A DNA stretch of 34,416 bases from Saccoglossus kowalevskii. Its lineage: Eukaryota; Hemichordata; Enteropneusta; Harrimaniidae. The notes under the pieces are model-generated. The model was not told the DNA's origin. It did no database searches and was given only the letters and a program-made list of their open reading frames with translations. Both the position numbers and the translations under genes were made by a program. The stretch spans positions 250,763 through 285,178 of the forward strand of contig NW_003137828.1 in NCBI RefSeq assembly GCF_000003605.2. Reading direction: 5' to 3'. The first letter of the stretch is position 1. Every line of letters starts with the position of its first letter. Below, in pieces: positions 389 through 32,018 of the stretch.

Positions 389-953
389 GCTAGATGAAAT
401 TCTTGGAAAAACTGAAGGAAAGAATGGAATCGAGTTGTATAATACAAAGGTTCCTATGATCACCAGGGTTATAAAAGTTGAGAAAAAGGTCAATATGATT
501 GATCGAAAATTAGATATGTTGATTGAACTCTACAGAGAAGAAAGGCAAGAAAAAATGAAAGCGTTACAACAAAATAAACATGAACATGATGATCAGAATG
601 ATAGTGACAAAGACACTAAAGATCCCCCATCACGGATTAGGCGGCATGGAAGAGCCAGAAAGTTGTCACGGGTAAAATCAGAGGGGCATGGGGCACATGT
701 TGATACCCATGAAAAGTCTGAACGCAGAGTTGAATTCAGAAAACTCTCTGATTCACAACCGAGTATTCCATCGTCTTTAAATTTAGATGCACCAGATGCA
801 ACAACTGTTACAGTATCCACAGCACTTTCACAACCATCAATCACTACTACTACTGAAAGTGAACAAGGCCTGCAGCTCGCAAATGCCAAAGGTGTTGGTA
901 GGGGACAAAATATTCCTGATTATGACAGTGCAATAGACGATACTAGAGTTTAG
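389..953 (+). CDS. KCNQ: KCNQ (Kv7) potassium channel, C-terminal coding exon (partial gene)
   Basis: This is the last coding exon of a voltage-gated potassium channel alpha subunit of the plasma membrane (M-current/KCNQ family). It opens after an acceptor CAG at 386-388, carries one leftover base, then 187 codons and a TAG at 951-953. Residues 1-7 (LDEILGK) match the end of KCNQ helix C (RVDQIVGR in human KCNQ2). Residues 24-52 match the helix-D assembly coiled coil: ITRVIKVEKKV and DRKLDMLIELY resemble GRLGKVEKQV and EKKLDFLVNIY. Hydrophobic a/d positions V27, V30, V34, I37, L41, L44 and Y48 keep a perfect 3-4 heptad. After that comes a polar, Lys/Glu-rich then Ser/Thr-rich tail with a basic patch (IRRHGRARKLSR). 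The protein ends in DTRV, a class I PDZ-ligand pattern. No ankyrin-G anchor motif of the vertebrate KCNQ2/3 type is visible. The six membrane helices, pore and calmodulin-binding helices A/B must lie upstream of the window. Confidence 0.87.
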
Positions 954-3900
954 TATATCAGCTTACATCCATATGTATATTTTGCCCAGGGAGCCAGCTG
1001 TGAATAGTCAACTTTCTTGCCAAAGACAGAAATCAACAGATACAATAGTTAAAATTTTGGTAGAGCTTCCTACTTCTGTTTTAACACGATTTGGAGCTAA
1101 TCACACATAATGATTTAATTGGAATTAAAGATACTACTAACCCATTGTGTGGATATATATGTTCATGACTTCAACGGAATATTATCCAAGGAAAGTATGC
1201 GCGTACATGCGTGTCATCTGTAACATATCCATTTCTTTATTTCGTTTTCATTCCTGGATCATGCAGTGAAAAACAACAATAGATTTATTTGAAACTAGTA
1301 AAGCAAAGAATGTCACTGCTTTCTGGATATAAGGAGCTGAATGCTGTGCCTAAAATGGGATTATTATATCTAACTAATTGCTTCATATAAAACTACCGAA
1401 CCAGGATGTATTCTCACATAGAATATCAAAGAAATGCTACTTACTAAATGGAATAGTGTAGACATTTGTTTGAGTGATTCTGAGTGGATTATCAATATAC
1501 ATAACCTGAAATGGAAGTAGTGTTACTCAACATTACTGCCTAGTTGGGACATTATCAAGTACCTGTTTTAGAAATGTTTTCGTTGGTTTCTGTCTGGGCC
1601 ATCTCAGCAAATATTGATAGCGAGTTGTGTGCTGAGGAATTTTGAACCTTGCGGATAAACATTACTGCCATGGACACAATGCTTCTTCTGGATATAGTTG
1701 TTAAGAGAAACATAACTTTACAAACGCAAACAAGAGAAGAATTACTGCCGTCAACAAGTGAATGAAGCTTCGACAAAACAGTCATGAATTTACATGTTTT
1801 AATTTAGTTGTTAATTTGTTTTTCATGTTTTGTTTGATATTGTTTTTAATTTTTTATTACTTTCATTTCATACATTCACAAAGAACAGCGTAATTATGAG
1901 TTTCCAAAGCATGAGAGGTAATACAGAAAATATATGCTGTGTTTTTCTGGATTTTCATGAGATAATTAGGCCGTTTTTTGTTGTCCACATTATTTTTTAA
2001 ATTCTGGACTCTGATGTTCGAAAAATATGAAGAGTTACATACTATTACAGGAATGAGTGTGGTTCTTGTGTGTTGGGGCTTGTTACCCAATTATGTATGG
2101 TATTTGCCTGCGAGAGATATTTTTTCTATGCAATTTCTGCGACGATGGCAGCTGCGATTCATGGCTTGCTACTTAAGCAGTACTATTGATAAAAAAGTGT
2201 ATGTTCGATTATATTGACATAAGTATAATTCTCGCAAGTTACATGAAACCTTTGCTCCGGTATGGTCTTATGAAAGTCTTTATTATTTCCTAAACAGTGA
2301 ATTGCTCGTGAGGTATGGTCGTCATTGGTGGTACCTTTAACGCGAAAATGAATACTATGTAGTTATATTTTGCAAGATTGTCAAATTACTTAATATATAT
2401 CTGCTTGATAACAGAGTTTCTTCTTTTTGTCTGTTGGTCACGTAGAACTATTTGCTACATGTTTCCTCGGAGGCCCAGCTCTCTTTGGATGTAAAATGTA
2501 ACTCTTACATAAGTTTTGGTCTATTTGACTGGTCTATCACAGAAACGTCACAAGTGGAAAATATGAAGGCATCTCAGAGTCTTTCAATATATATTCAGGG
2601 CATTGCACAGTAATTTAAGTAGCTATACTATTATTATTATTATATTTAAAACTAAATCTATTTATCACTTTTCACGTCAGTCATGTGTGCACAATTTTTA
2701 CTATTTGAAGGAGATGTCTTTTTTTTCTTTAATGTCATCACTTAAATACTTCGCACAATATCTGCTACTATTTCAATTGAAATGAAAGCCACAACTGAAT
2801 TCTTTGTTAATTGTGACAGGGTTTAGAAACGTTTAAAAGTTTAGACCAAGTTCAAATTAGTTAGGCGTTCTGGGTGATCAGAAATTTGAAAAGTTGTGTT
2901 TTGGTGTAAACATGTTGACTGCATACTTTTATAAAGTATGTATATTCTACGTTCTCAGCATGTCATTGCACTATACGTGTGTTATTCATTGCAGCACAAC
3001 AACGCACTCTCACTCCAGCAAGCCACTTTCGACTCTAGCACTCAATCCCAAGCGTATCCCATCTAGGAAAATAGTGAAATGAATCACCAGAAGTTTAATA
3101 CATATAGTGTTCACTCTATCATTATTCTTCTTTACTTGACACTCTACTTGCATATTTATGTTTTGTATAAATGAGCTGCATTGGCATTTTAAATGTTTAT
3201 GACATGTTTTAATTACTTGAAATGGCCTCCTACATTACCTCATGAAATTTTCGGAAATAACGTCATTTTCAGGTACATGATTGCTCAACCACTTTTCACC
3301 TGATATTGGAAACGTTATCGAGTCATATATTCTAATCTCTTTTTACTGTTTCATGTTTTTATTTTTATTTTACTTTTGACTGGAGGCTGAATGAAGCGCA
3401 GGTGTTTTATTTACCGTCTCAAATTTTATTTATTAATTAATTTATTTATTTATTAAATATTTATTCAGCAGGAGCGGGTTTTAAATTAAACTGTGGCGGG
3501 CATAAGCAGTAGTTTCTAGCGAGTTTCTAGTGCTCGTGATATTCTGTGCCTTACGTCAGTAACGCCGGCTCGTTTGAGGGTAATTCATGACGTGCTGGTC
3601 GGCGATCCGTGCAAACCAAAATATGTACCCAAACTACTACAGTTTGTTCAATATTTCATTTGACCTACGAAGCCATGGTGTAATAAATAGATACTTTACT
3701 GTTTTGGTTAACACGACAAACTATCCTCTAAGGTGAACAAATTGGGGACGTATTTGACAAAATATCACGTGACACTGAAACCCACTAATGGTCTACTGAT
3801 ATTCAGGTGTTGGCTATTAACCTACATAGCAAGGGGACAGTGAAAGACACTGTGTTCATGCGGTATAAACACGAAACTCGCCACACATCTCAAAATTCGT

Positions 3901-4552
3901 ATGCATGAGGTGTCCCTGTAAACATGAGCAATATCAAAAAAAAAAAAACTTTTTTCGGAATTTAGATGGACTGTTCAATATGTTTACCTGAGATTTGCGG
4001 GTCTTTAAGAACAGGCGGTGATAAAGTTCTAATGAAACGTATGCTACGAACATGCCATTGTATTTGAATACAATATATCCATTTCTATATTTGCACCCAA
4101 AAGTCAGCACCTAGTAATTCAACTTTTTTTCTGGGGATTGTTTTGAAGCCCTGATATGTCTTACCTCTCCACCCTCTGTGTTCTACATCTTCATACATGG
4201 TGATACTACAATTATATATACTTAAACACTTTACTATAATATAAATAGTAGCGGATTCTAGCGTAATTTTCTCTTTTATGTAACTTTTAGAACCATTCTT
4301 GGTTATTTCCCTACTAAACATTCTGGCAATGGCCATTCTATTTTCGAAAAATACAAATGGTGGTTTTATCGTAGACTTTATATACCATTGTGTAAACCTG
4401 GCAGGTTGCAGTTGAACAATACTGTGTACCTATTTATTTACTGATATCTACGTTTATTCTGATCTCAACACGTTGCTTGGCGCATTTCACTTGCTGTTAG
4501 CTTGCCATAAAATGTACGTGGCTCAGACTATACATGTACTCTGTACAATAAA
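954..4552 (+). other. KCNQ 3' flank, probable 3' UTR; no gene seen
   Basis: About 3.6 kb of AT-rich sequence after the KCNQ stop. Open frames here are short, lack splice context and match nothing I know. Possible polyadenylation signals on the + strand are ATTAAA at 1124-1129, AATAAA at 3682-3687 and AATAAA at 4547-4552. Which one is used cannot be told from sequence. A TTTA-rich low-complexity run lies at about 3425-3469 and an A12 run at about 3937-3948. Confidence 0.5.
3425..3469. repeat. TTTA-type low-complexity tract
   Basis: An imperfect run of TTTA/TTAA units, seen directly in the sequence. No flanking duplication is evident. It is probably a simple AT-rich tract in the KCNQ-BMP intergenic region. 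Confidence 0.7.
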
Positions 4553-7500
4553 TATACCTTTAGGTGCTAATTAGTTGCTTTCCCTGTTATATGTGTTCCT
4601 TACCAAGCGCAAACTCGGTGTTAATGACTTGCTTTTCTATTGTATTATAGCTTTGCCGTGGCCACATTGCTTATATAGAGTAACATCAGCATGTGTCACA
4701 CAAAGCATTGATACGTTCTTTGGATGCGAGTGGGCGGTGGTAGGACAAAGTTGATGTATAGAACGCGAATTTTTCTGTACATTCGTGTTTCGCTAAAATT
4801 GTAAATAACTTACAGGATAATAAAATAATTTCTTTTAAGTTGTTAATTTTTTAACAATTACATTTTGAATTCAAAGTACTCTCAATCAACCCGTCGTCTA
4901 CAGTGCACAGATAAGCCACAACTTTCAAGTTTTATAGTTGCATACAATTTTATTTGCAGGCCAAATCAATGGTGGCTATATATCTGATTGTTATGTGTAA
5001 GGAATTATTTGGCAAATATCACATTTGAAACGCAATCACGTGTAGAATAGAGAACACCTACTGTATATTATAATGCTTCCATTGCATACTACCAAATCTC
5101 ATCAACCTATGCTAATGAGCAAACGTGTGTCAGGCACATGACAGACACGTCTGCTGATTTACATTATATTGTGCCAGAGACTAATGCCACATGATGGATT
5201 CCGTATAGATGTCGACGATGTGTGTGTGTATGCGTGTAATATTTGGTTAATGATTGGAGTGTAAGTGGTAAGGGTGATGATTGCACAAATGAACCATCAT
5301 GGGTATATTCGTACTAACTCAATCAATTGAAAATTCGATTTGGATATTACATTTTTATACAGTTTGGATCTATGTGCATCTCTTTAAGGATACGTTTTAT
5401 AAACGTCAGTCTTTGATGTTATTGTCCAATTCAATTATTAGATCACGTGTGTGAAAAGGTTTTATTTTATATAAATATGTACATAAAACTTTACTGACTC
5501 TGGTCAACTCTTTGAAATTTGCCAAATAATTTCTGTGATTGTGTAAACTTATAGGATTACGCTGATACTGTGTAGATGTTCCGTGTCCATGAATTCAAGA
5601 AACTATATGTATAATATTATTTTTACAATCTGCCAAACGTGGAAGAAAATATATAATTTCATTTCTTAACTCTTTATAGTTTTTCCCCTTCAGCTTTTAA
5701 ACTATAATAACTTGCATACTGTAAGTAGTCTAAACGCACTGAGAGGATTTCAATTTGACTACTGTCGAGGTGTAATATTATTTAACTTCTTTGTATCCTG
5801 ACAAAAGTCATTTTTATCAGAATTAAAAATATTTCAAAACATCCATATATATAATTTTAGTAAGTGTGCTTTTTTGTAAGCTGTGCCCTCTAGCAACGAA
5901 GACCTATGACGTAAATGGGTAAAAGAAATGGGAGTAATTATCGGACAAGTGCATCTGTTCCCAGAAGATGCATAAATCCTTTTTTTTTTTTTTTTTAGTT
6001 CTCCAACTTATTTCGGGAATTGTAATTTATTTGTTCAATGTGTATATAGGAGCGCCCGGGTTTCCGTGATTCGAGAAAGTTGTTCTTTATTTCGTAATAT
6101 CCATGGACGAATTTAAAAACAAAAACGTGCCCACGCAACTCATATTTAACTGTAGTAACATAGTTTAGTGGATTATCACTCGGGGTTCGACGGTGGGCTA
6201 TATCATCAAATCAATATTCGATGAGAAACATTTGTTTGAGATGCGCGCGAGTTGTTTCCTGTATCGCCATTAGACCCCTCCCGTTCGAATTTATAGGATG
6301 GCTATTTTAAATTACTCGTACTTCGACAGCGAACTTCGAACATTGCATACTTCCTGGGTTAGTATTGTATAGCGCATATCCGAGGCGGAACTCGGTCTGC
6401 AATGAATGATGGGATTTTGTTGTAGTGAAAACAATAAATAACATCTTAGTCAATAAACGTCACAATACGTCAGCTTTCAATCAGTATAACCGGTGACTTT
6501 CAGACTCGATTGTTAAAACGTCAACTAGCGACTATCTTAAGCGTCGGTATAGCCCATTAAATTGAACTCGTCATGCAAGGCGCTGAATGCGTATAGTTCA
6601 ACTACTTTGTCAATATTCCTGTAACTCGGGACATTGGGAAAATTTATATATAGAACCAAAAATGTAATCATTTTCTTACATCACGGGAATATGCACATTT
6701 ATAAAATAAAATGGTAATATGCCCGACAAAAAAGCAGGAAAAGCCAAAAAAAATAGAATTAACTAAGGAAACAATGCGAGTATTAAAACAATATGTATAT
6801 TGGGTTTACGAATAGCGAAGTTGTAGTCTGGAAACCAACCTATCCGAGTGCGCTTGAGAATGGGCTGGCGAATCGCTATGTAACAACGTAGTCTGCTCTG
6901 TTATCAGACCCATTCACTAGTATATTATTCATAAATGTTTCAAAGTTTCACGACCCCAGACGCCATCTAGACTAGCGAAGATGGGGAAAATGAACTGACT
7001 CATGCATAAGATTTTAATCAGATCGAGGTACCTGGGATATAAGGAGGGAATGTGTGCACACATTGGGGGCGTTCATGCCTATATTTGAAATGCGCAAGAC
7101 GTCACACAAAATCGTTCTTTTTTTCGTGTTTTCATGTACGAGGTTAATGATTGTTCTACGCGAAGCACTTGACCACCATAAGATGGATGATTAGACTATA
7201 TGGCATTTACGTGATGATCATCAATGTATCGCCAATCAATTGATTATATACTCAATGGAGGCCAACACTCAGTAATGACTAGAATGTTCACCGTGCGTGA
7301 CTCAAGCCACCATCGTAAACGGCGTGGAGTCACGCATCACCGTGGCCGTGACCGATGGGGGGGGGCCCTAATGAGCTGTCAGTATACGAAGAGTGGTGGG
7401 CGGTTATACGTCGTCAGTTTGCTTATATTACGATTTTGTATATTATGATTCGAGATAATCGAACTACTGACGATTTCCGGTCCAGCTCCAATTATAATTA

Positions 7501-9240
7501 TATCCCCGTGTTTGATTTGTCCCGATTTTTTGGCAAACCACATCCTTAAATTAAGCGTACAAAAACAACGACACTGCGATGTAGCAAAAAGGGATATCTG
7601 TAGTACCACGGAATGTTCATCTTTAACATATTTGCATGAATTTGGATAACAAGAATTGGAATTTGGGGAAAACATAGAATTCTTGCTAGATGGTATGCAA
7701 CCTGGCTTTCACGTCACACATTCTAATCAGGAAAAAAGTAGTGGATGGAAAATACTATACATCCGCAGTTGACTCAAAGCAGAGGGACAAGGTAAAAAAA
7801 CAAATTCATACTGAGATCACCCATGGGCGCTATGTGTTAACCGATAACACCTTATATGGCGTGTGCTTTAGGAGCACCCCCCCCCCCTCCAAAGATTTAT
7901 TGTGAAGTTCACCTCATTCATGATTGTAGCAGTCTTGCTTGGGATGTTTTGAATGGTTATGACACAATAGACCACTATCGTTATCAGACTCTTGAGGGTA
8001 TTTTTTCGCTTTTGAATTCAAATTATGTCATGGCAAAAGTCGCATTTGCAGAGTGCATATTGCATACTGGTATAACGTGAAATTTCCCAATTCGTGGCCA
8101 ACCTTCATTTATGTAATATTATACATACATTTTCTTTGTCTTGTAACTTTCTTACTTATAATATAAATAAGCTTTACTACGCTAAAAACCAAAGAAGATA
8201 TACTAGTATATCAATTTTCTTTAAAGACGTGATAAAGCTCACTTTACTCGCACAACTCATTTACATATTCATTTTTGTACGATGCCCGCCCTGCATATGT
8301 AGCTATGCGGTCAAACGCACTATGGTCCGTCATGGTTTAATTTTGATCTCACGACAGTGTACGAGTTGGGTTTTTTTATGGCGCCCTCTATGGATGCATG
8401 CATGCTATTGGCCTTAAATGCCTTCCTGTCGGACGAAGTCTGAAACGAGGACTCGCGTTTTGGGTTCCGGCCGTGCGTTTTCAAAGTTGGTACAAAAAGA
8501 AGTTATAATAGGATACATATGCACGTCAATTTTATTTTTCGTTTGGTTTACCTTTGACCCACTGGCGGCTATTTCCGTCTTGAAAAACAGTATTCGATCA
8601 TATCAACAATTTCTCAGCCATGCCTTGAATTAATTTCACTCGAAGTTGGTATTGACATCACTTACGAGTTACTGATGCACGTCAAAATGGACGAGTTTTC
8701 TGCCCGTTTTTGAGAGATATTATACAACATTGGATTAAATGTGTTACAAAGGTAATACAGTTTGGGTTTAATGGTTTTTAGCACTTTTTGACCGACTTTG
8801 TGGAAAATAGTTACAAAGACAATATACAAATATACGTTGTTTGTTGTTGTAATGATCTTTGACAATAAATCAAATTCGTCACCCGTTATGACCTACCACA
8901 ACGCTGATTCAAGCCCTCATTCAAACTGCATGGAACCTGTATCCATGGTCAATTGTGTGTTGCCCACTGTGGAATTACTTTGCCATTTAATGTTTGTAAT
9001 TTTTTTTGGCAAATTACCAGTGGAATAATGTATAATTGTTAAATAAACTATTTTTCTTTTTCTCATTTACCCCCACTTGATACTGAAATGCATTTTTGTG
9101 TATGTGTATTGTGTATGCATTTTTTGTTTGAACTAGTTTCATTTTGCACAGCATTGGTCAATTTACGTCCTAGTACCAGTAATTCCCCCACAATCACACA
9201 GTATTATCTACAACCACATTTTAGGTTTAAATACATTGAG
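4553..9240. other. Intergenic DNA between convergent KCNQ and BMP genes; no gene seen
   Basis: No open frame has a convincing protein, start or splice context. Visible items: a T run at about 5980-5997; a patch richer in CpG at about 6040-6560; a 9-bp hairpin stem at 7295-7303 with 7327-7335; a G run at about 7356-7364; and a C run at about 7877-7888. The CpG-richer patch could be a regulatory element but has no decisive motif. Confidence 0.5.
7295..7335. repeat. Short inverted repeat (hairpin)
   Basis: GCGTGACTC at 7295-7303 pairs perfectly with GAGTCACGC at 7327-7335 across a 23-base loop. There is no T run after it and no gene boundary beside it, so no function is assigned. Confidence 0.5.
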
Positions 9241-10708
9241 TTTATTAAAACATATATAACCGTGCACGAGGTTTGGAATACAACCCGTAATGAATAATGT
9301 GTGTAAACGTCTATGCTGGGACGGTCACGTGTACGTCAAACGACATCTAATGAAAATATCCGAGCCTGTTAATTTAAAGTTATTTTTCCACGACTCAGTT
9401 ACTTTTTTCGGATATTTAAGCAACAAATGTGACCTCTGGAAAATACTGCAATCCAAGACGCCAATTAAGTAGAACAAAGGCAAGCATAACCACTGCACAT
9501 TATTTAAAAAAAACATGCGTTAATTAAGAATATACAATCACTAAAATCCAGTTGCGAAGAAAATTGAATTCAGTTCTGGATTTGAGTTAAACGTCCACAC
9601 ACGTGGGACATGGCAGTTGACGCCATCAAACACACAATATCTCGTTAATGACTGAAGCATCGAAAACACATAATAATATAGTTACAAGTTCATAATTGAA
9701 TGCTTTGAATAAATTTGAATCTGAAAAATGTGAAAAGATTAAATCAGGAAAGTATGAACACTCGTACTCAAACAAAAGCAACCTGAGCTATCAGTTATAG
9801 CGGGCGTGCTTCGCCGCGTATCACATTCCCGGTAGATGAATTGTGACTGGTACAACGCCTTACTCTCAGTAACAAACCATTTCGAAACACAATAAAAACA
9901 AGACGAACGACGATGATCTAGAAGGTATCTTTCGAAGAAATATATATAACAATTAAACTCCCATGTATATGAACACAATTTTCGAATTCGTTAAATGTCA
10001 TGCATTTTTGTTTACAATACAAATAGAAATAAAAATCTTTACACAACTAAATACCTTAATATTGTGAGCAGTGTCAGCGTAAGTTAAATAGAAATAAACA
10101 AGATGTCTTCTATATAAGATATTTGTCACATACGTATACAAGTCCCTGAATTAAAAAGTATATATCTCACGCAACGTGTATATAATACACTGTATAATAA
10201 ATTAAAAACAACAGTATTTCATATTATCACCGTAAGTGGCAGTTTCCAAAATGCCACAAGACGAACTGCTGTAACATAAAAAATATAGCATTACCTGCCG
10301 GGCGGATCTCCTTGTATACTTAGTTTTTTAAAAACGATTAAACTAAAATATACAAAGCATATAAATGAGGTCAATCGTCCGAGAAAATAACATATCAGAA
10401 AAAAAAACACAGACGAAATGTTCAAACTTCAACTTCATCATGGATAATAAGATGTCCCATGATACTTTTCGAGTAAAGAAAAAAATTAGCCGATTCACAT
10501 TAAAGGTGAACAATAAAAATATAGGCTTCATCACTTGGCAAGCTGTCGTCTGATCTGAGAGTTTCCCGTCAATTCTGCCTTTTGTGACACAAGTGAAAAG
10601 CCGCTGTATTTTTTGTTCACAGTATGCAAACTGCTTTCCGAGAAACCGACCAATTATTAATTTTGTGAAGAAGAAACATTCACGCATTAAGGCGTGAATA
10701 AAAAATAT
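9241..10708 (-). other. BMP 3' flank, probable 3' UTR
   Basis: Sequence downstream of the BMP stop, read on the - strand. It is AT-rich with no supported gene. The nearest canonical - strand AATAAA I found is TTTATT on the + strand at 9241-9246, about 1.5 kb after the stop. If used, it would give a long 3' UTR. Variant signals nearer the stop are possible. Confidence 0.35.
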
Positions 10709-10969
10709 TCAGTGACAACCGCACGATTTGACTATCATGTTACGGTATTTTTTCAGTATGACGTTAGAACTGTCATCGAAATAGAGTACCGAGATGGCGT
10801 TTAACTTGGTGGGTGCACAACAAGGCTTGGGAACTGCTTCCGGATCCATGAGATGAACCAGGGTCTGGACTATAGCATGATTTGTTGCATTCATATGTGC
10901 ATTCAAGGGAAATGAACATTCCCCATTGCAGTAAAAAGCGGAATAGCCATCTGGAGCAATAATCCAGTC
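10709..10969 (-). CDS. bmp5-8: BMP coding exon 6: most of the mature cystine-knot domain and stop
   Basis: It encodes residues 324-409 and the stop. The acceptor is TTTCAG at 10970-10975 (- strand) in phase 0, so exon 5 ends with Gln and this exon starts DWIIAPDGY. It contains six of the seven cysteines: YCNGEC, KPCCAPT and SCGCH. C373-C374 include the inter-chain disulphide cysteine of the family. The glycosylation site MNATNH is intact. The whole segment is one 261-nt exon. Vertebrate BMP5-7 genes, as I recall, split it after the AIVQTL motif. Confidence 0.97.
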
Positions 10970-13900
10970 CTGAAATTTACAAGAAAACAAAATGACAGAT
11001 AAATCATGTAATTATCAGAAATCCAACCCAGCTTAACATTTCACATTACTATGTGTATCCCCACATGGCGGCACTACACCTGTTTAATTCGTAACTATAT
11101 GTGTAGCTGTATGTCGCAGTCACACGAGAGCTGAACATCCAAATAACTGGTCAGTAAGACGGGAATGTTATGGGTAACACTACCAAATACGGTATTGTGA
11201 CCCAGGCCACGTGACAATCAACCGACTTTCAGCCAATTACTGGTGGTGTAACAACGCGAATTTGGCATAAACTGTCGAAATAGTTGTGAATTGTACAGTT
11301 TTGAAATAAATAAACTTAGTGATTGAACAAAAACAATGTTTCTTAAAATATATCCAGACGCCGTAGAAATTTGTACTTTTACAATTTCAGGTAAGATATG
11401 GATCGTTGAAATTTACGATGCATTGATTTCATGGCGGCCGTGTTTCAAACTTTATAGATTGACGTAGCGATGACAAATCTGGAAAAAATATTAATAAATT
11501 GTACTGGTTGATTTATTTGGATGTTTTAGCCCTCAAGTGTCTGTAGCCAATAAGTGATTAGTTTCCCTTCTTACCTGCCAACCTAGCTCCCTGAAGCTGA
11601 CAACCAGTGATCGTTTTTTACAACTTCTATCGCGGCGACTCTTGTTATCTGAGTATCAAAAAACAAAAAAAAAACAAGGCGGGTGAGCAAAATATAGTTT
11701 CCATACATAGCATAACGAAAGATTTGTGCTTTTGATGATTTTTTTTTATTTATTGAAAGCAATAAATGTCATTACTGGGAAAACCCTATCTAGGAATTAG
11801 ATCTCTGTGTTGCGAGATGTATTATTGTTTATAAAAGCCATTTATAGGTTGATTGAGCACGTGACATTCCTAAAATGAGAATGTCTCTTAGAAAAACAAA
11901 ACTTTGCATTCGATCAATGTTGCATTTCCATGCTGAACACACAGAGCTGAGAACAGCCACTGCTTGCGCTGTAAAATTTTGAAGTATCGAAGTTTCGAAA
12001 AGGTAGACACATGAGCGACGGCACTTGTGAATCCTGGTGACCAGTTTAGTGTGGTGTTTAGCGTGTAGTCTTCCAATAACCACAACAAACAGGGTGGAGT
12101 TCAAGGCCGAAAATATGTGCTCGCGGCGTTTCATAATAAATGCTTTTTATTAATAATTGCACCTTAACATAATATTTCATTAGATACGACTACGTCATAT
12201 CTCATTATAATATTAGCATATCATATACGCAGTCACGGTACACATGCTTCAGGTCGTTCTTACGTATTCCAAAACGCATGCGCGACAGTGCCGTGGTACA
12301 AAGTGTCAATGTGAGGAGGGTAATGCCACATACCCGCTGTAAACTGCGGGCCACTTTCCCTGTGTTGTTGAAATTGACAAATTCAAATTGCATCACCACC
12401 CATTCTTCCATAACTCCCTTCACAATCAAAAACAATGTCTCCTTCATCCACACGAAAACACACTCTTTTCCTCTGCTAAAAACAATCAACGAGTATTAAA
12501 TAATTCATGTCTACTTCTGTGAACTTTCTAGTTCTAGTTCCCATAACCACGGATAGCAGTTTTGTTGACAATATAGTCTATGTCTTCTAATGCATGGGAT
12601 TCTAGTACTGGTATGTAAATTCGACTGACTGCTGCCACCAAGAGTCAGAGACAGACAACATGATTATGAAAACAACTTCAACCTCTATTTTTAGTTGCAG
12701 AACATTTTGAAAACAAAATGATTAAAGTAATTAGAACTAACCTTCGTCGTCATCGTAATTGTCGGGTTTCTTGTTTCTATCTCGATTTCGATTTCTTTTC
12801 TTCGACCCTGCTCCTCGCCTCCGTCTCGAGTGTGCCTCTTCTGACGTCTTGAAAAATGCTACCACGAAAGGTTGTTTTTCATCGGCTTCGTCTTCTCCTA
12901 AAATGCCGACATCTTTGATATCCACGGCCTCTCCTAGTTATGTGATTACAATATACTTTATATTCAAACAAATTTGCTTTTGATATTGCACTGTTCATGA
13001 CACATACAAGAGTATTCTTCTATAAGAAATTTAATACACTAATACGCATGAAATTGTTATTGTACGTATCCAAATAGTGCACATGCGCATTAGCCATATC
13101 GTAATGTTGTATCGAGCAAATACTTGTGTGGTGTAGGCCATCCATGAACATACAGTATCAGCAATATTCAAAAATTACGTTCTCGTCTAAATTGCATCTT
13201 TTAATTGCCAAATCAGTTTAAAAATGCCGTATGATTCGCCTTCGCGACCTTTATTTATCTCAGTAGCAAAGAATACCACAAATTAGAAAAATGTGGGTAT
13301 TGAAAGTGTGTGTTCTCCTTCCAATGAACACATTGTCTGACTTTACTGCTAATTTCCCATGAAATAATTACATATGACGTCATATCGGATATGCGTTCCA
13401 CATCTGCACCTGCTGGAATGGTGACCAGCCCCTTGTCACTCGTGTACGGTAGACGAAACGATATACTGTAAAATCATTTATTTTCGCTATTGTCGCTGAA
13501 GGGGCGATTCAGTGAAAATAATTTCAAGTCATCAACACTCAGTGAAAATGAACTCCATACAAAACACCCAACATTTTTTTTTCCTGCGAACTCCAGCTAA
13601 TTTTTTTTACAGTAACACCCAAAACCACCAACTTTCAATGTTGATCATGTAAAATACGTGTGGAGTACAGGCACGAGAGTACGTCACATCCGGCTGTTCG
13701 GACAAGTTTCGTTACTTTAGGTGATAGCAGAGAGTGATTATAATATTTCACTCTCAGCTCTAATCTGAAACTCGGCAACATTTACTCTATAATTTCTCAG
13801 AAAATTGGCGCCATTTTTCCAATTCACTTTTCTTACAGACGATAATGTGACTGGCGGTCAAAACGCATATGTTGATATAAAAATGAAAGAATATAGTAAC

Positions 13901-16900
13901 ATGTTAGGTCTAGATCAGAGTCTTTGCGGTCTTCATTACTCAAAGATTATATCCAGTTTCCCCGCGGTTATTGACGCCAGCTTGCCGGCACTTGTCCGAT
14001 ATTAATCTGGCTGATTCGAGAATGTTTTTTAATTTCTCCGTAATGGATTGTTACCTGCACATGCGCAAAGACGTTCTTTGGTGAGAAACATCTACACTAA
14101 CACATCGCTATTCGCTGTGCATGACATGGAGTCATGTTTTGAATTCTGCGTGATACGTAAACTCTTAACCAAACAATAATTGTGTAAATAAGTTACTGAC
14201 TTCGCGCTATTAAGTTTTGTATTCGATGCATCAGATAATTTCACCGTGATGTTATTATACTGACTTAGTTCATGATATTCACTTTTACCACAAAGAGAAT
14301 CAAGCTGTCACGCCATTAAAGCACGGGGGTCGTCGCGCAGCGCGTGTTCGAATTTCATGTTAATTTCCATTTGATGGATTAACATTCAAAATTTAAATAC
14401 ATTATGAGCAACACTTCCACATTAATACAGCTTCGCATGTTTATAAAAGAAAGTAAGGTAATGTGATACAGTAATTATCAATTCTCTGATTTTCCAAGCC
14501 CTTTTGTTAAACTGTTTTAGTAAGTTTTTGTTTATATATTTAGGAATTGTTATCTAGTTATAGATTGGACTATGTTCTATTCAAAATGAATAATGTCAAT
14601 AAAGTTAAAGTTAAAGTGTAAACATACAATGTATTTTACACGCGTTGTATACGTCACTAGGAGTCCGACATCGGACAGGACGCGACACGACGACCACCGC
14701 CCTTTAATGTTCCAAGCCGCACGTATCAGCGTTGAGTCGCAAGTCGACCTACTTCTGACTGAAAATGACATTACGATATGACATTTCATATATGATTTGA
14801 ACTACCGGTAGGAATGCAAAGATAAACAGTTTGTACGAGTTTCAACTTTTTGTGAGATTCAACTACACCCGCAGGGCAAAGTTTCAAACTAGTGATCTAG
14901 GGCAGATGCAACTAAATCTTAGGAATTTATCGACACATTAGCTAAGCTATGTGCATATACACGTACAATATTAAAATGCAGTGTGAAGGGACGTTCTAAC
15001 AGACAATTTGCGGGTTTCAGGTGCGCGTGATGTTTAATTCGATTACGCCAGTTACACCACGGGCTCGTTCGAAGATCGTGCACGATGCACACCGCCAATG
15101 CCCGGCGCCAATGGCACATGTTGTTCTGTTTGTACAACGCGACTGCACATCTACAGGAGTTCACGGTACTCTACGAGAAGAATGTTAACCTGCAAATACT
15201 TGGTATCAAAAACAACTTGAACGCGATGCGAATACAGTGACACCGTACTAATCAACAACCACGACCGCCGAATTAACTTTTACAGCAATATACATATAAT
15301 GTGTTCTGAACAATAAATGCCACTTAATAAACAGTCCGTAATTTTGGAATTGCCAAACGGAATGGTATGCGACTTATAACAGATGGGCATGGTAGTGTCG
15401 AGAATGAATGGGTTGCAAGGACAGGTCGAATGAACGAAAAACAAGTTTATCTGCACGTCTCTGACATATATATATACTAGTATGGCACCATTTCGAAGGC
15501 GGTCATTTTAGAGTCAAAACCAACCGCGACTTAGAACGCCATGTGTTGGGCCCACTGTGACGTCAGATGTCTAATAACAGAAGTGACAAAGATTCAGAGT
15601 TTGTTGTTAGTCGTAAACATATAAATACCTTCTGATGTCTCTATTTCGACGTGGATTTTCAGTTTATCTTTTTCCAATAAATCCCACACATCTACAGCAT
15701 GCGTGACGTCAAACACTAACCACCCTTGCTCATAGCCAAATATCGTCCTTTGGTCAAGTAAAACTGTCTCTTTTGCTCTGAAAAAATGAAACAAGTTTGT
15801 TTATTACAATTTTGGAAGATAGATATTTAAATTAAATTTAAGTTTTCTGGTCACGTGAAAGATTTTGGAATTTTCCAGTGTTTACTAAGCGCGGGCAAGA
15901 GGGGAGAGGCAATTTTTAGAACCAGTCGTTCACGAGCCCGTTTGCTTTAACTTCCCTCCAGAAATATCTTTGAAATGTGCATACGGATACCAAAATGTTA
16001 TAAATGATGTCATGATGTATGAAAGACACGTTTTCTATGGTTTTTCTTTGCAAACATTGAAATGTGGCACGGTAAAGTAAAATATCTACTTAATACTGCG
16101 TATTTTTGCTCACCAGAAGTGGATCAACTTCGTTTATGCATGGAAGGTACTAACGTTAGTACTTACCATGGTTTATGTTCGACTGCTATGTGACATCACA
16201 ACTGGGGCGTATTGGAGTGTTTTTACCACCGTCACTGGTCACAGTGCCAAGTAAGCTTGGAGAAAAGATAGCCAACGGCGAAATCGTAGGATAATCTCAA
16301 ATCGTTTTTAAAATTACTCTAGTTACCGATGCAATAATGTGACGTCACTTCCTCTTTTATCTACTAGTACTATACATTTGCAGCACATACATTTCGTATT
16401 CGTTCGATGACAAATGTAACATATCAATACGCATGCGCAGTAATTGTTATTGTACGTGCAAAAAACAATTAGTCCACAGTGCCTAAACAGTGCATTGTTT
16501 CATTGAACGAATACTCGGCTGTGGGCTACAAGAACAATGTTTTTAGTTCAGGATATTTCATGGTCAAATACATTCATCGACTTACAGTATACAACAATAA
16601 TATTAAAGCGCGGTGGTCGTCGCGCAGCGCGTGTTCGGATTTCATGTAAATAAACAATGTATTTTACACGCGTTGTATACGTCGCTGTTAGTCCCATATC
16701 GAACAGGACGCGACGCGACGACCACCACCCTTTAAGTGTTCACAGTGCACTATAACAATTATATTATCGTACGGAGTGTAAAACAATCAGATAAAACCTA
16801 CTTTCCGGTAAGAACTTGATACACGTGTATTTTGTAACTGCTTTCTGGATCCAATGATGTTTTATACATTCTCAACTCGGCTGACGTCACAGTATCTTCC

Positions 16901-19900
16901 AATGACACGTCACTTACGTCAAATTCATACCGTTGTACATTGACTCGAGGTGATTTGTGATGTTTCTTCTGATGTACTGAAATATCAAAAACATACATGT
17001 GTAAGTCATACTGGTATTGGTACACGTGATCTCATACAAGGTCATACATACTGGGGTCACACATCCTGGTACTGACATGACGTAACAAATGTTACCCATC
17101 TTGGTACTTGTCTTGACGCCATACATCCAGGGACGATGTTCCATGTAAGGATTTAGATATTTAATTAAGATAATTGCAACGTCGTGTTTTTTGTAAAATC
17201 GTTATCGTGCTGGATTATAGATATTACATGGTCATATAGGGAAGTTTGCTTTATCGTAATCTGAGAAACGTTTTTGTTTTGGTTGCACGCGGAGTATTAA
17301 GCGCGAGATGCCAGTGGGACATCGCAAATGCGCATGCGTTTTTTTTTAGAGTGGGGTTACTGGTACATACTAATAATTCGAAACGCATGCGCATTTAGAT
17401 GTTCAGTTTACGAAAACTACTATGCAATGCGTAAATATTACCAGTAGTATCGGACAGACGGAACCAAATAGAGAGCATTATCTTCACTCGAATGCATACT
17501 ATAACTTGAACAAGGTGATGATGAATTATCAGTTTGTTTGTGTACCTCAATACGCATGCGCAGTTCACTATTTCATCATACAGATATCATTTCGGGAGTG
17601 ACTAAAAAAAACATGTTTATTTATGATATAGCCACGTGATCCAATACATGAATTATGATATTTGTAGAAAAATGTGCTACATGGTTCATCGCCACTTTCA
17701 CTTTGCACGCAACCAGGAGTGGACATGCATTGAATGTCCACGTTTGGAGCATTCGACACAAATATGATTTAAAAATAAACACGTTATATAAGAACCAGGA
17801 ATTCACAGTGAAATGCGTCGAAGTAAAACGAACATGATTCTCATGCTTATCACATAGGTATACATGTTTTTTTTTGCTTTATATTATGGAGTTGAAACAT
17901 TCTCATTTCGACTATATGTCCAATCTATGCACACAAGTGGGATACATTGGACCGCCGATGAAGATTTATGGAGAAAGAGACGTGTGCGTACGACAGAACC
18001 TCATCGTCTGTTTAGAGGAGTATCTGCCTGAATTGGTACCATCGGCAAAACCGAACCGCGACGAATGAATCAAAACCAGGAAAAATAGTAAGATACGGTC
18101 TGTTCTATTACAATATCCAAGCCACCGAAATCACTGTAATCAATGAAAGGAGAAAACACGAATTGAACTGTTGATTTAAGAGGACAACGCGCCTACCTGA
18201 GCGTAATTGTTTTCACATCAAAAGAACATGCCTTTCACGTAAAAACTAAACAAACTTGCATTCAGTGAAGCGTGATCTAAGTCGTAGTGTGCGGTCCGGG
18301 AAAGCCGTCGCCATTTTGATTAACGCAGCCATAAGAGTGGCTGAGTTCAGTGAAAAAAAGAGTTGAAATGCTGTAAAGGCTTAGATTTGTCAGAGATTGC
18401 CAGCTATTTAAAGGTATCAATGGCTAGTTCTATTTGAGTGAATACACCGCCAATTTTATCAACATTGGCACGTAAATCAACCAAAGCCCTCACAGTCCCG
18501 TTCTAAAGAACCGATTAAAACTGGCCCCACGCGATCAGAGCCGAACGTTCAGTAAGAAAATACAAAATATTATAAAAATCAAATAAAGGCAACTTTAATA
18601 TGAAAAAACGCCCAAATTTGTGTGAACGGGTACAAAAAATGCATAGATCGTAAAGATTTTTTATTTTATTTTCGATTTGTGAACTATGGATGCTGTATTC
18701 TATACAGTGCAGAATATTCTATCATGCATACCAGGATAACAGCGATGGGTAATCGATTCCTAGTCCACTGCCGACAGACAGGAAAAGGACACTCAACATT
18801 TTTCAGCTCAGGGCATTCCGAGGACTACGCCAATTATGTTCGTCTGTACCTCTTCCCCAAACCCAATTTAATTAGTTGATGACTCAACTTTCCAATTACA
18901 CCCACCAACGCTATTTCGACAAGGTTATCAACCATCAAAACGTAAGGGTGACCGTGGACAGTACTTATTCCAATGACAGCTAAAAGGTATTACCATGAAG
19001 TCACGATCTAAAGGCTGGTTTACACAGCATCACTTCTCAAAAGTGAAGTAAAATAAGTTTAATTCGCGTTATAAATGTCTATCTAAGGAATAACTAAGGT
19101 AGAGGCAAGGGAATAGGACCGGCGTTTAATACAATCGCAAACACATTACAGAAACTCACTTACACATCTCTCGGGTATATAGACTTCACAAATTATGTTG
19201 CTTCGCTTATACGCCCATGGAGTAGATTACAGTAAATAAACATATCAGAAACCGCTCTTATCGCAAGTGTCTTAATTCCGTTCAAAGGCGGTCCCACCGT
19301 GATATATATATCTGATTATCTGCCAGGCACTTTAAAAGCCACGATGCTAATAATACAACCCCATTTCACGTACACTTCAACTGAAAAGAAAAAATAGGGA
19401 CATGCCACCAAGAGGGGTCCATTTTTAAGGGAGTCTAGAAAACCTGCTGATGAGAGTAATCATATCGACAATAAACGTTATTCCGGCATCAAAACTGCCA
19501 TTTCGGCGAGAAACCGCTCACCATACAAAAGTAGATGACAACGTTCTAAACGATTTTTTGCAACAATTTGTGAGAGAGGTGTTAATTTTGTCCGTCTGGA
19601 CAGGGATATGCGCCACACCCCTACCATACATTGCCAGGAAAGTAAATTTCTTCTTTCACACACAATTACGTGTAAGTGGACATAGCAATATGGAGGCGCT
19701 CTGTAATTCACATACACTAGTACATAACATACACTGAATTGTGATATTTTGTAAATAAAAGTATCGAGGGGTCACATTGTGTGGCAGCCGTCTGGCAGCA
19801 CAGTCGACAAGCAGTACACCGCAGTCATGCAGCGCGTCACAGCCGAAGCACCGCAGTTGTCATGCAGCGCGCCACGGCCCGGCCGCGCACGAAGCACCGT

Positions 19901-25900: not shown

Positions 25901-27641
25901 TCAAAACAAGCCCGGCTTTTCGCCATACACAGATGGCCCGCGGACACACTTTCGTTCTAATATACGCATATTTTTTGACTTTATGGTGCTCAGGAGGAGG
26001 ATTACGTTTCTACTAAGAATACGGAATGGCCAGTAAGTGTGTACACAAACAAGGCTACAAGACAATATACTCTCCACAAACACAAAGAGCGAGCAAACAC
26101 TTAAAAGCGAATCAAATTGGTGCCCGTCGTTAAAGTCCACTGTTCGTATAATGAATGGATCGCTCTGTTTTGTTGTGAATACTAGTAGAATAGGCGAGTA
26201 TGAGTTGACTTTTACTTCAATGCTTTTCCCAGGCTTTATGAACTTTACTGAGAGAACTTGCCGGGGAGACTAGTGGACGAGAGTAGGTCGATGACTAATG
26301 GCCGTGGCGGCTTAAAAATGAATCGTACGAGGTTGCTGTATTCACAACGCCAATAATCCCGGTGAATCGGCAATGCCAAATTAGAATCCCATCACATCAA
26401 TATTTTCACTTAGATTTCCCACTGTACACGTCACGGCATGGAAATGCGCCGAATGGTTTGTTAAAAAATAACAAAAACACAGAATTCAATACTATTGAGT
26501 AACACACACAGTATCAAACCAGAAACGCTATAGGCGATTCCATGAACAGCGCTGCCATAACGGTTGACAGCTTGTGCATAAAGAGATCCGTAAACCTGAA
26601 ACATTACGTTACGTCACATGCTAATAAGAACGGTGTTAATTAAAAAGAATGCATTGACCGTCTTTTGTTAGTTCGTGTGAAATGTACTCTTTGAAAATGT
26701 GTAATTTCATTTAAATGAAGAAGAGCGCGAAAACACGAGTATTCGTGTATGCCGAGGCGCTTTTTTGATACAAAAAAAAAAGAATGGGCAAGGGTGCGAT
26801 CCACTGCGCTCTCAGTATTGTACCAAGAAAGTGGGCGTCTTTTTACCACAACAAAGGAGGCAGTATGTAACTTAAGCGTTTAGAAAAAAACTCTGAATAA
26901 GTAGACTTGCTGAGATAAAATGGCAAAAATTGGAAGCGTTAAGCCATCGAAACTACAACGCGAGTTACAAGATTCAACCCAGTACATCGTCAGAGTGTGA
27001 GCCATTAAACGGAGTGGTCGTAACAGACCTTAGTTTGGGAGTTCTGTTGGATAATGACACGCTGACGTGAAAAATGACAGGTATTTCAACAACACGCGTG
27101 TTGACCAAAGAATGAAACATCCGTTCCAGCTGTCGGTCTGTTGAGAATCTAAGCCAACAAAGCTATTGAGACCGAGTATTTGGTTGCGGCAATTCGTTAG
27201 TGCTGGGACGAATATTCAATTATATATTTCACCTATACAGACAATATACATGAAATACTTACGTGGAAAACTCATGACAACATCGGCGTTGTTAATAGCG
27301 TTCACCTCCTGAAGCGTGTAGTTGTGTGTTAGATCGTGGAGTAATGCATGACTCGGAATATCCTCCAGTGTTTCGTTATTTTCCGTGGAAATTGTTCGAT
27401 ACAAATCGATCATGAACTTAGGAGCCGAATTGTGCGTTGCTTGTGCCCGTGGCCTCGGTCTATGTTGGAGACCCAATAGCGACAGAATCTCGTGTTGCAT
27501 GTCCTTCTTTTGCTTTCCGAAAACCTGAAACACTGGGTCATTGAGATCCGAGTGCAAGTCCTGCGTTTCCTCTGCGTACAAATCCCAGGCAGTGGTACTG
27601 GTAAATAACAGCCAGCAGAAGAGGACCCAGCGACACCGCAT
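10709..27641 (-). CDS. bmp5-8: BMP5/6/7/8-class bone morphogenetic protein precursor, complete, six coding exons
   Basis: This encodes a secreted TGF-beta superfamily ligand. It is expected to dimerise through the mature domain and signal through BMP type I/II serine-kinase receptors to Smad1/5. Coding exons on the - strand are 27641-27263, 16976-16802, 15777-15629, 12933-12742, 11648-11575 and 10969-10709. Intron phases are 1, 2, 1, 1 and 0, and the joined length is 1230 nt (409 aa plus stop). Residues 1-18 are a signal peptide; 19-274 a prodomain ([35 protein letters not shown] motifs); R271-R274 a furin site before GAGSKK; 275-409 the 135-aa mature chain. The seven cysteines are C308, C337, C341, C373, C374, C406 and C408. 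N350-A-T is the conserved N-glycosylation site. The ending CGCH and the [19 protein letters not shown] block place it in the BMP5-8 (60A/gbb) group, not BMP2/4. Every splice junction uses GT-AG. Orthology to one single vertebrate paralog cannot be assigned. Confidence 0.95.
10970..11574 (-). other. BMP intron 5 (605 bp)
   Basis: Donor GTAAGA at 11574-11569 and acceptor TTTCAG next to 10969. The intron is AT-rich, with no repeat or reading frame that I can support. Confidence 0.9.
11575..11648 (-). CDS. bmp5-8: BMP coding exon 5 (74 bp): first cysteine and SFRELGW motif
   Basis: A short exon found by translating between flanking splice sites. The acceptor is ACTCAG at 11649-11654 and the donor GTAAGA starts at 11574. 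It completes codon 299 (Asp) and encodes residues 300-323: a basic linker (NKSRRDR), then [17 protein letters not shown]. That matches CKKHELYVSFRDLGWQ of human BMP7 and supplies the first knot cysteine, C308. Its phases (1 in, 0 out) join exons 4 and 6 exactly. The motif R303-R-D-R306 just before the cysteine is a minimal RXXR proprotein-convertase site. The Tyr usual in LYVSF is Val here. Confidence 0.95.
11649..12741 (-). other. BMP intron 4 (1093 bp)
   Basis: Donor GTTAGT at 12741-12736 and acceptor ACTCAG at 11654-11649. It holds one NRF1-like palindrome (ACGCATGCGCGA, 12274-12285). The open frames at about 11829-12134 and 12205-12489 show no family features and are treated as chance. 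Confidence 0.88.
12742..12933 (-). CDS. bmp5-8: BMP coding exon 4: end of prodomain, furin site, N-terminus of mature chain
   Basis: It completes codon 235 and encodes residues 236-298, with one base left over (phase 1). [16 protein letters not shown] matches KQPFMVAFFKATEVH of human BMP7. SRRRR at 270-274 is the furin cleavage site. The mature chain then starts [16 protein letters not shown], a strongly basic stretch, followed by an acidic run (DNYDDDE, 292-298). The acceptor reads AACTAG and has a poor pyrimidine tract. It is fixed by phase and by the homology on both sides. An alternative AG three bases further in would drop one residue. Confidence 0.93.
13040..13140 (+). repeat. Diverged dispersed repeat, copy 1
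   Basis: It shares AATACGCATG and an exact 16-base word (AATTGTTATTGTACGT) with 16426-16532, followed by a weaker matching stretch ending GTGTAGGCCA versus GTGGGCTACA. I do not recognise the family. The copies are too diverged to define ends. Confidence 0.45.
14316..14707 (+). mobile_element. MITE copy A, interrupted or long form
   Basis: The left arm (14316-14360: TTAAAGCACGGGGGTCGTCGCG, then GTGTTCGAATTTCATGT) and the right arm (about 14617-14707, ending CGACGACCACCGCCCTTTAA) match the compact copies elsewhere. About 256 bp (14361-14616), absent from the other copies, separates them. The extra segment ends in a short TAAAGT-type tandem tail. It may be a nested insertion, or this may be the longer parent form. 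Both ends carry TTAA. Confidence 0.75.
15629..15777 (-). CDS. bmp5-8: BMP coding exon 3: prodomain arm
   Basis: It completes codon 185 and encodes residues 186-234 plus one base. [20 protein letters not shown] aligns with LLDSRTLWASEEGWLVFDIT of human BMP7, a prodomain core strand. The acceptor has a good T-rich tract ending TTTTTTCAG (15778-15786). The donor is GTATTT from 15628. At 149 nt it fits the surrounding phases (2 in, 1 out). Confidence 0.95.
16426..16532 (+). repeat. Diverged dispersed repeat, copy 2
   Basis: Partner of 13040-13140, sharing AATACGCATG and AATTGTTATTGTACGT. This copy includes a full ACGCATGCGCAG palindrome (16429-16440) that is missing at the same place in copy 1. 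Confidence 0.45.
16603..16735 (+). mobile_element. MITE copy B (133 bp)
   Basis: A compact non-coding element with terminal inverted repeats of about 22 bp: left TTAAAGCGCGGTGGTCGTCGC, right GCGACGACCACCACCCTTTAA. The interior includes GTGTTCGGATTTCATG and ATTTTACACGCGTTGTATAC. TTAA at both ends in every good copy suggests a TTAA target duplication, as in piggyBac- or Kolobok-type transposons. Assignment to either superfamily is inference, because no transposase is present. Confidence 0.85.
16802..16976 (-). CDS. bmp5-8: BMP coding exon 2: prodomain
   Basis: It completes codon 127 (a Leu split across the intron) and encodes residues 128-184 plus two bases. [20 protein letters not shown] and KIHVYQVL align with the BMP7 prodomain (FRFDLSKIPEGEAVTAAEF, RISVYQVL). 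The acceptor is GATATTTCAG at 16977-16986 and the donor GTAGGT starts at 16801. The segment between the MSF motif and this block is shorter than in vertebrate BMP7. Confidence 0.94.
17328..17562. promoter_or_regulatory. Cluster of three NRF1-like palindromes
   Basis: ATGCGCATGCGT (17328-17339), ACGCATGCGCAT (17383-17394) and ACGCATGCGCA (17552-17562) lie within 235 bp, 350-590 bp upstream of BMP exon 2 on its strand. They resemble the NRF1 consensus YGCGCAYGCGCR with one edge mismatch. Similar words occur at 12274-12285 and 16429-16440. They may be real sites or remnants of a dispersed repeat. Confidence 0.3.
19785..20170 (+). repeat. CpG-rich patch with degenerate GCAGCGCGCCAC repeats
   Basis: The word GTCATGCAGCGCGYCA recurs with a spacing near 46 bp. 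Near-identical units are at 19845-19875 and 19891-19921, and weaker ones at 19812-19840 and after 19921. The high GC removes stop codons, so two overlapping + frames stay open (19779-20045 and 19781-20293). Their translations are His/Arg/Ala-rich repeats with no domain, so I treat this as non-coding repeat DNA related to the neighbouring decayed MITE. Confidence 0.55.
20173..20288 (+). mobile_element. Decayed MITE-related copy C
   Basis: AGTCGTCACGCGGCGCGTCAC at the left, then TTTTACATGCCTTGTATACATCGC and CCCATATCAAACACGACGCGACGCGAC at the right, follow the same order as the intact MITEs. The terminal TTAAAGGG/CCCTTTAA ends are missing and the left half is rearranged. It is probably an old, truncated copy. 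Confidence 0.55.
22920..23450. promoter_or_regulatory. CpG-rich patch in BMP intron 1, possible enhancer
   Basis: It is visibly richer in CG dinucleotides than the surrounding AT-rich intron, with an A16 run at about 23083-23098. It keeps a + frame open at 23149-23451 that has no recognisable domain. Regulatory function is only a guess from composition. Confidence 0.15.
25444..25472. repeat. TAA microsatellite
   Basis: A perfect trinucleotide run of about nine to ten units inside BMP intron 1. Confidence 0.95.
27263..27641 (-). CDS. bmp5-8: BMP coding exon 1: signal peptide and N-terminal prodomain
   Basis: It encodes residues 1-126 plus one base. I chose ATG at 27641-27639 because it has A at -3 (AAAATGCG) and gives a compact signal peptide: MRCRW, a hydrophobic core [13 protein letters not shown], and likely cleavage after A18. 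In-frame ATGs at 27659 and 27686 would only add a polar N-terminal extension. [30 protein letters not shown] and ADVVMSF match the BMP7 prodomain alpha-1 and latency-lasso region. N89-E-T and N107-Y-T are possible N-glycosylation sites. The donor is a perfect GTAAGT at 27262. Confidence 0.93.
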
Positions 27642-28889: not shown

Positions 28890-29010
28890 TTAAAGGGCGG
28901 TGGTCATCGCACAGCGCGTGTTCGAATTTCATGTAAACAAACAATGTATTTTACACGTGTTGTGAGTCCCACATCAAACAGGACGCGGGGCGACGACCAC
29001 CACCCTTTAA
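28890..29010 (+). mobile_element. MITE copy D (121 bp)
   Basis: Left end TTAAAGGGCGGTGGTCATCG, right end GGCGACGACCACCACCCTTTAA. The interior matches copy B except for a deletion of about 12 bases next to TTGTGAGTCCC. TTAA is present at both ends. It lies about 1.2 kb upstream of the BMP start codon. Confidence 0.87.
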
Positions 29011-31886: not shown

Positions 31887-32018
31887 TTAAAGGGCGATAG
31901 TCGTCGCGCCGCGTCCTGTTCGGCATGGGACTCATAGCGACATATACAACGCGTGTAAAATACATTGTTCTTTTCATGAAATTCGAACAAGCACTGCGCG
32001 ACGACCGCCGCCCTTTAA
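31887..32018 (-). mobile_element. MITE copy E (132 bp, reverse orientation)
   Basis: The reverse complement of copies B and D: left TTAAAGGGCGATAGTCGTCGCG, interior CGCGTGTAAAATACATTG and TTTCATGAAATTCGAAC, right GCGACGACCGCCGCCCTTTAA. TTAA flanks both ends. It is inverted relative to copy D, about 2.9 kb away. Confidence 0.87.

Follow-up and report, generated by a model that had tools for sequence, protein, structure and literature searches.

A KCNQ gene beside BMP5-8 and TXNDC5 in the hemichordate Saccoglossus kowalevskii, a linkage likely to be ancestral

Introduction

In the human genome, KCNQ4 lies at 1p34, KCNQ3 at 8q24, KCNQ2 at 20q13.3 and KCNQ5 at 6q14, according to Table 1 of a paper on the 1/2/8/20 paralogon (PMC6585022); this paralogon, with members on chromosome 6, also carries RIMS1-4, RSPO1-4 and other genes. 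According to PMC2660306, KCNQ4 lies near akirin1 and KCNQ5 near akirin2, and KCNQ2-5 trace back to a single gene duplicated in two rounds. BMP does not appear in the text of PMC6585022, nor TXNDC5 in its Table 1, and among the open-licence papers listed in searches none named a linkage of KCNQ, BMP5-8 and TXNDC5 in its title or at the beginning of its abstract. The present work concerns a stretch of 34,416 nucleotides from the hemichordate Saccoglossus kowalevskii, hereafter the window (C2922:250763-285178, where C2922 is an 843-kb scaffold). It contains the end of a gene for a potassium channel (KCNQ) and a complete gene for a growth factor (BMP5-8), and TXNDC5, which encodes an enzyme of the endoplasmic reticulum, is the next recognised gene beyond them; what was observed directly is the presence of the three genes in this order and a junction without gaps between KCNQ and BMP5-8. 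Human KCNQ2, KCNQ4 and KCNQ5 and human BMP7, BMP8 and BMP5 are all found on chromosomes 20, 1 and 6. The paralogon presents spread paralogues, whereas the hemichordate locus presents single neighbours.

The BMP pathway provides a second point of comparison. In five bilaterians 23 annotated BMP components retained their linkage group, as did 16 of 17 in a bryozoan; noggin-like genes were located on chromosomes of two linkage groups, and retention of the linkage group was commoner for genes of the pathway than for random genes (P = 0.003), as reported in PMC13121700. Linkage of a BMP gene is therefore to be expected. Chordate linkage groups kept their content and were extensively rearranged in their internal order (PMC7269912). 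Finally, according to PMC10794066, Gdf1/3 has been detected in deuterostomes only, and many of these animals carry it in linkage with Bmp2/4. This is likewise a retained neighbourhood of a TGF-beta ligand, but one composed of two related ligands, unlike KCNQ, BMP5-8 and TXNDC5, which are unrelated genes.

Results

KCNQ and BMP5-8 are convergent neighbours

The assembly comprised 572 Mb in 4830 contigs. The window itself was free of gaps and was flanked directly by runs of N on both sides (C2922:248191-250762 before it and C2922:285179-292042 after it), so that the adjacency of KCNQ and BMP5-8, lying on one gap-free piece, is independent of scaffolding. The initial annotation had described a terminal KCNQ exon and a full BMP5-8 gene tail to tail and 9755 bp apart, and Pfam, PDB and splicing all agreed with this description: KCNQ was on the forward strand and BMP5-8 on the reverse strand, with 9755 bp between the KCNQ stop codon (ending at position 953) and that of BMP5-8 (position 10709). 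Six-frame Pfam scans of the interval yielded no family at E ≤ 0.1, although short or unfamiliar genes would escape such scans. On one gap-free piece and with no gene between them that Pfam can detect, the two genes were immediate neighbours, as had been proposed. The features are collected in Table 1.

Table 1. Features of the KCNQ and BMP5-8 genes and of the interval between them (window positions unless C2922 or L029 is given)
Feature	Position	Strand	Evidence
KCNQ (Kv7) N-terminal exon	within frame C2922:126887-127282	+	PDB: KCNQ5 best, E 0.00022
KCNQ helix-A exons (two)	C2922:242144-242239 and 242316-242411 (L029:1382-1477 and 1554-1649)	+	splice sites; first exon searched in PDB
KCNQ helix-B exon	C2922 ~247.2 kb	+	PDB: KCNQ5 best, E 5.4e-17
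KCNQ last coding exon: helix C end, coiled-coil helix D and C-terminal tail	389..953	+	PF03520, PDB, split codon
Interval between the two stop codons, without recognisable gene	954..10708	.	Pfam
BMP5-8 exon 6: bulk of the mature TGF-beta domain; stop 10711-10709	10709..10969	-	PF00019 E 7.2e-32, PDB, splicing
BMP5-8 exon 5: beginning of the mature TGF-beta domain, first cysteine	11575..11648	-	splice sites, frame
BMP5-8 exon 4: last part of prodomain, RRRR, basic N-terminus of mature ligand	12742..12933	-	splice sites, frame
BMP5-8 exon 3: prodomain	15629..15777	-	PF00688 E 1.4e-6, splicing
BMP5-8 exon 2: prodomain	16802..16976	-	PF00688 E 2.8e-8, splicing
BMP5-8 exon 1: signal peptide-like start, beginning of prodomain	27263..27641	-	PF00688 E 7.2e-21, splicing

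Structure of the KCNQ gene

The last KCNQ exon followed a CAG acceptor at positions 386-388 and its coding sequence ended with a stop codon at 951-953. Its sole Pfam match at E ≤ 1 was PF03520, KCNQ_channel (E 4.8e-6, 26.9 bits for a cut-off of 25). The five PDB matches obtained at E ≤ 1 were all KCNQ4 or KCNQ5, some of them fusions, aligned over helix D with a best E of 0.0068. With a Pfam score above the cut-off and PDB matches to KCNQ4 and KCNQ5 only, the exon is identified as part of a KCNQ gene. The AG at the end of the helix-B exon and the first G of the window exon form a single arginine codon, in phase, and because of this split codon the upstream exons and the exon of the window look like parts of one gene, which would span at least 124.8 kb from the first to the last recognised exon. 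Successive recognised exons, helix B and then the last one, covered PF03520 positions 66-123 and then 154-185. The C-terminal helices A, B and D were all recognised, as expected for a member of the family, and at the N-terminal exon 11 of 11 PDB sequences at E ≤ 0.01 were KCNQ.

The best PDB match of every exon searched was KCNQ4 or KCNQ5, and these scores, which are not a tree, are favourable to a gene closest to KCNQ4/5. The helix-B exon gave 64 bits with KCNQ5, 57-62 with KCNQ4, 55-57 with KCNQ1 and 50-53 with KCNQ2/3. The first helix-A exon had KCNQ5 as best match (E 9.5e-11), with 40-43 bits for the full KCNQ2-5 channels and 36 for KCNQ1. One section of PMC2597720 is headed on KCNQ1 and KCNQ4/5-like channels in invertebrates. 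Exons for S1-S6 were not detected by a motif search in the part of the scaffold that it covered; C2922:200001-240762 lay outside this part and 131166-162843 consisted of N. Upstream of KCNQ, a gene finder based on codon usage recognised no other gene in C2922:1-126886, of which about 15 kb were N. This is poor evidence for a gene desert, since the threshold of the finder missed four of the six BMP5-8 exons.

The two helix-A exons, each of 96 bp with splice sites and separated by 76 bp, were identical at 85 of 96 bases, whereas their 40-bp flanks shared 25% (upstream) and 32.5% (downstream). Eight codon changes were silent and one was a replacement, E to Q, directly before the LIQ of the calmodulin-binding motif. 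This pattern suggests an old duplication under selection and alternatively spliced, the pair being candidate mutually exclusive exons. No such pair was named in a title or beginning of an abstract among the matches listed. In the last KCNQ intron, a fragment resembling the start of a transposase, presumably of the Tc1/mariner type, was present at L029:7241-7428 (C2922:248003-248190), where it was ended by the N gap.

The BMP5-8 gene and other TGF-beta ligands

The six coding exons of BMP5-8, from 27641 to 10709 on the reverse strand, were bounded by AG/GT sites and spliced into a frame of 1230 bp, or 409 amino acids. The start at 27641 was one of several in-frame ATG codons, the frame being open to 27794, and the intron after exon 1 measured 10.3 kb. 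Exon 4 alone had no Pfam match at E ≤ 0.01; its RRRR motif is presumably the cleavage site. In the PDB, exon 6 scored 172-178 bits with BMP6/BMP7, 156 with a BMP2/BMP6 chimera and at most 122 with BMP2 and GDF5. The gene thus combined a prodomain with a TGF-beta domain closest to BMP6/BMP7 in the PDB comparison, not in a tree, as expected of a BMP5-8 (60A) ligand.

A survey of TGF-beta ligands in the genome considered the best 8 of 15 matches, which were named by recognition rather than by a tree: besides BMP5-8 itself, ligands resembling Gdf1/3, BMP2/4, ADMP, Nodal and TGF-beta sensu stricto, with two more. Over 102 positions, mature BMP5-8 was identical to the Gdf1/3-like ligand at 64, to the BMP2/4-like at 58, to the ADMP-like at 53 and to the Nodal-like at 42. 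The locus had been called the unduplicated form of a vertebrate linkage, and for BMP5-8 this held among the best 8 of 15 matches. The Gdf1/3-like (C803:285585-285890) and BMP2/4-like (C803:295837-296142) genes shared one strand of C803 and were separated by about 10 kb, so that the pair known from other deuterostomes was present. This pair and the TGF-beta sensu stricto-like ligand point to a non-vertebrate deuterostome.

TXNDC5 and the sequence beyond

Past BMP5-8, the next recognised gene was TXNDC5 (ERp46), on the forward strand at approximately C2922:298.3-313.2 kb, some 20 kb from BMP exon 1. Motifs of its three thioredoxin repeats were found, short of a whole gene model. One exon matched full-length TXNDC5 in the PDB with 197 bits, summed over repeats, the next protein being PDIA4 with 88. 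Two exons matched Pfam Thioredoxin, and NCBIfam gave only general protein disulfide isomerase (PDI) and thioredoxin families, all under their cut-offs. The three repeats and the better match to TXNDC5 than to other PDIs identify the gene as TXNDC5. It does not appear in the text of PMC2801517. Apart from 6.9 kb of N, the sequence between BMP5-8 and TXNDC5 was readable and gave no Pfam match except one below threshold, upstream of BMP exon 1, to the prokaryotic family COX4_pro (E 0.049), which was taken as chance. The third thioredoxin active-site exon of TXNDC5 was present twice in one open frame, as CDDC and CGHC (L032:6728-7039). Farther on, a reverse-strand frame of 370 amino acids resembling a heparan sulfate 3-O-sulfotransferase was seen at L034:8888-9997 (C2922 ~334.1-335.2 kb), for which HS3ST5 was narrowly the best match in the PDB.

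Repeats in the window

An element of about 130 bp with inverted ends starting with TTAA, which resembles a non-autonomous miniature inverted-repeat transposable element of the piggyBac type, occurred in four copies (window positions 14316-14707, interrupted; 16603-16735; 28890-29010; 31884-32018). A minisatellite with a 29-bp unit, approximately 29 copies and a longer period of 209 bp occupied positions 33553-34415 and reached the N gap.

Discussion

In human, BMP8 and KCNQ4 are about 1.2 Mb apart, BMP7 and KCNQ2 about 6.2 Mb and BMP5 and KCNQ5 about 16.8 Mb; BMP6 lies 65 Mb from KCNQ5 and is not known to have a KCNQ gene near it. BMP6 and KCNQ3, the odd pair of the set, are both expected on chicken chromosome 2. 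When four BMP loci were placed at random, with assumed human positions, three of them came to lie no more than 17 Mb from as many different KCNQ genes in 59 of 400,000 placements. Human TXNDC5 adjoins BMP6 directly at 6p24.3, so that there too a gene of the BMP5-8 family stands beside TXNDC5. It is this TXNDC5 neighbourhood that carries the case beyond a mere shared chromosome, given the position of human TXNDC5 beside BMP6.

We consider it very likely that the linkage of KCNQ, BMP5-8 and TXNDC5 is ancestral. BMP and TXNDC5 were probably close neighbours already in the last ancestor shared with vertebrates; for KCNQ and BMP the same proximity may be suggested tentatively. The initial annotation held that KCNQ and BMP5-8 were adjacent before the vertebrate genome duplications. 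The part of this claim that concerns linkage is likely, in view of the neighbouring genes seen here, the KCNQ bands of the paralogon study and the outcome of the random placements. Immediate adjacency at that time is a more tentative claim: the human pairs, at distances of about 1, 6 and 17 Mb, are not adjacent, and gene order within chordate linkage groups was rearranged.

We propose that the locus preserves, in a non-vertebrate deuterostome, a single-copy block that predates the two vertebrate genome duplications, with TXNDC5 following BMP5-8 and BMP5-8 following a gene of the KCNQ2-5 type. In this model, the duplications would have copied the block and given rise to KCNQ2/3/4/5 and BMP5/6/7/8; later rearrangement would have separated the KCNQ-BMP pairs, and BMP6 would have retained TXNDC5 beside it. 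Small local blocks may simply not yet have been broken inside a slowly rearranging linkage group. We favour this model as the best explanation with reasonable, though far from complete, confidence. Inertia, the simplest cause of retention, is the most likely one, and a regulatory constraint on the linkage is possible.

Several points weigh against the single-copy block. The authors of PMC6585022 favour small-scale duplications over genome duplication as the origin of the paralogon and regard KCNQ5 as a translocated gene. At helix B, KCNQ1 outscored both KCNQ2 and KCNQ3, and single-domain TXNDC5 chains, with 62-79 bits, remained below PDIA4. The limit of 17 Mb was picked post hoc, when the distances were already known, and the looser event of three BMP genes on three different KCNQ chromosomes is expected by chance in 2.3% of cases. 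The roughly 20 kb that separate BMP exon 1 from TXNDC5 include the 6.9-kb run of N. Moreover, the human BMP6-TXNDC5 pair is tail to tail, whereas the hemichordate genes are head to head, so that at least one inversion is needed.

The three genes could instead descend from one ancestral linkage group and have become adjacent only secondarily, in this lineage, by scrambling of the order within the group. The separation of the human KCNQ-BMP pairs by about 1 to 17 Mb fits such a history; scrambling would not, however, favour a TXNDC5 flank that repeats the neighbourhood of human BMP6, and we hold a secondary adjacency to be unlikely, if still a serious competitor. Coincidence or a wrong join, bringing unrelated genes together, is highly improbable. 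The links to the upstream KCNQ exons and to TXNDC5 cross the N gaps that flank the window, and the looser chance count given above leaves some room for coincidence; yet the last KCNQ exon and BMP5-8 share one gap-free piece, the KCNQ exons past the gap join the window exon in phase, and the closer placement of the three human pairs was rare at random.

Another explanation, compatible with a single-copy block, is that BMP5-8 has enhancers within the introns of KCNQ, in the 9.8 kb between the two genes or close to TXNDC5, so that breakage would be harmful and KCNQ and TXNDC5 would be bystanders. The 124.8-kb span of KCNQ, the preceding 126 kb in which the gene finder, a weak method, recognised no other gene, and the retention of BMP pathway genes above random expectation all point in this direction, but KCNQ genes are normally long, and we regard such a regulatory block as rather doubtful. 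A bolder version, in which a tight trio existed in the deuterostome (perhaps bilaterian) ancestor and was held together by BMP5-8 regulatory DNA threaded through the 125-kb KCNQ gene, with vertebrate BMP5/6/7/8 still using pieces of it beside KCNQ2-5, appears improbable.

With a single-copy block as the preferred reading, the locus lets a vertebrate paralogon be viewed from an outgroup. The surprise is moderate, because BMP genes are expected to keep their linkage. The locus could nevertheless tie all four BMP5-8 paralogues to one ancestral neighbourhood, and not only three, BMP6 having been missing from the three pairs recognised earlier, and such a tie would make the regulation of BMP5-8 testable as a cause of the survival of the linkage.
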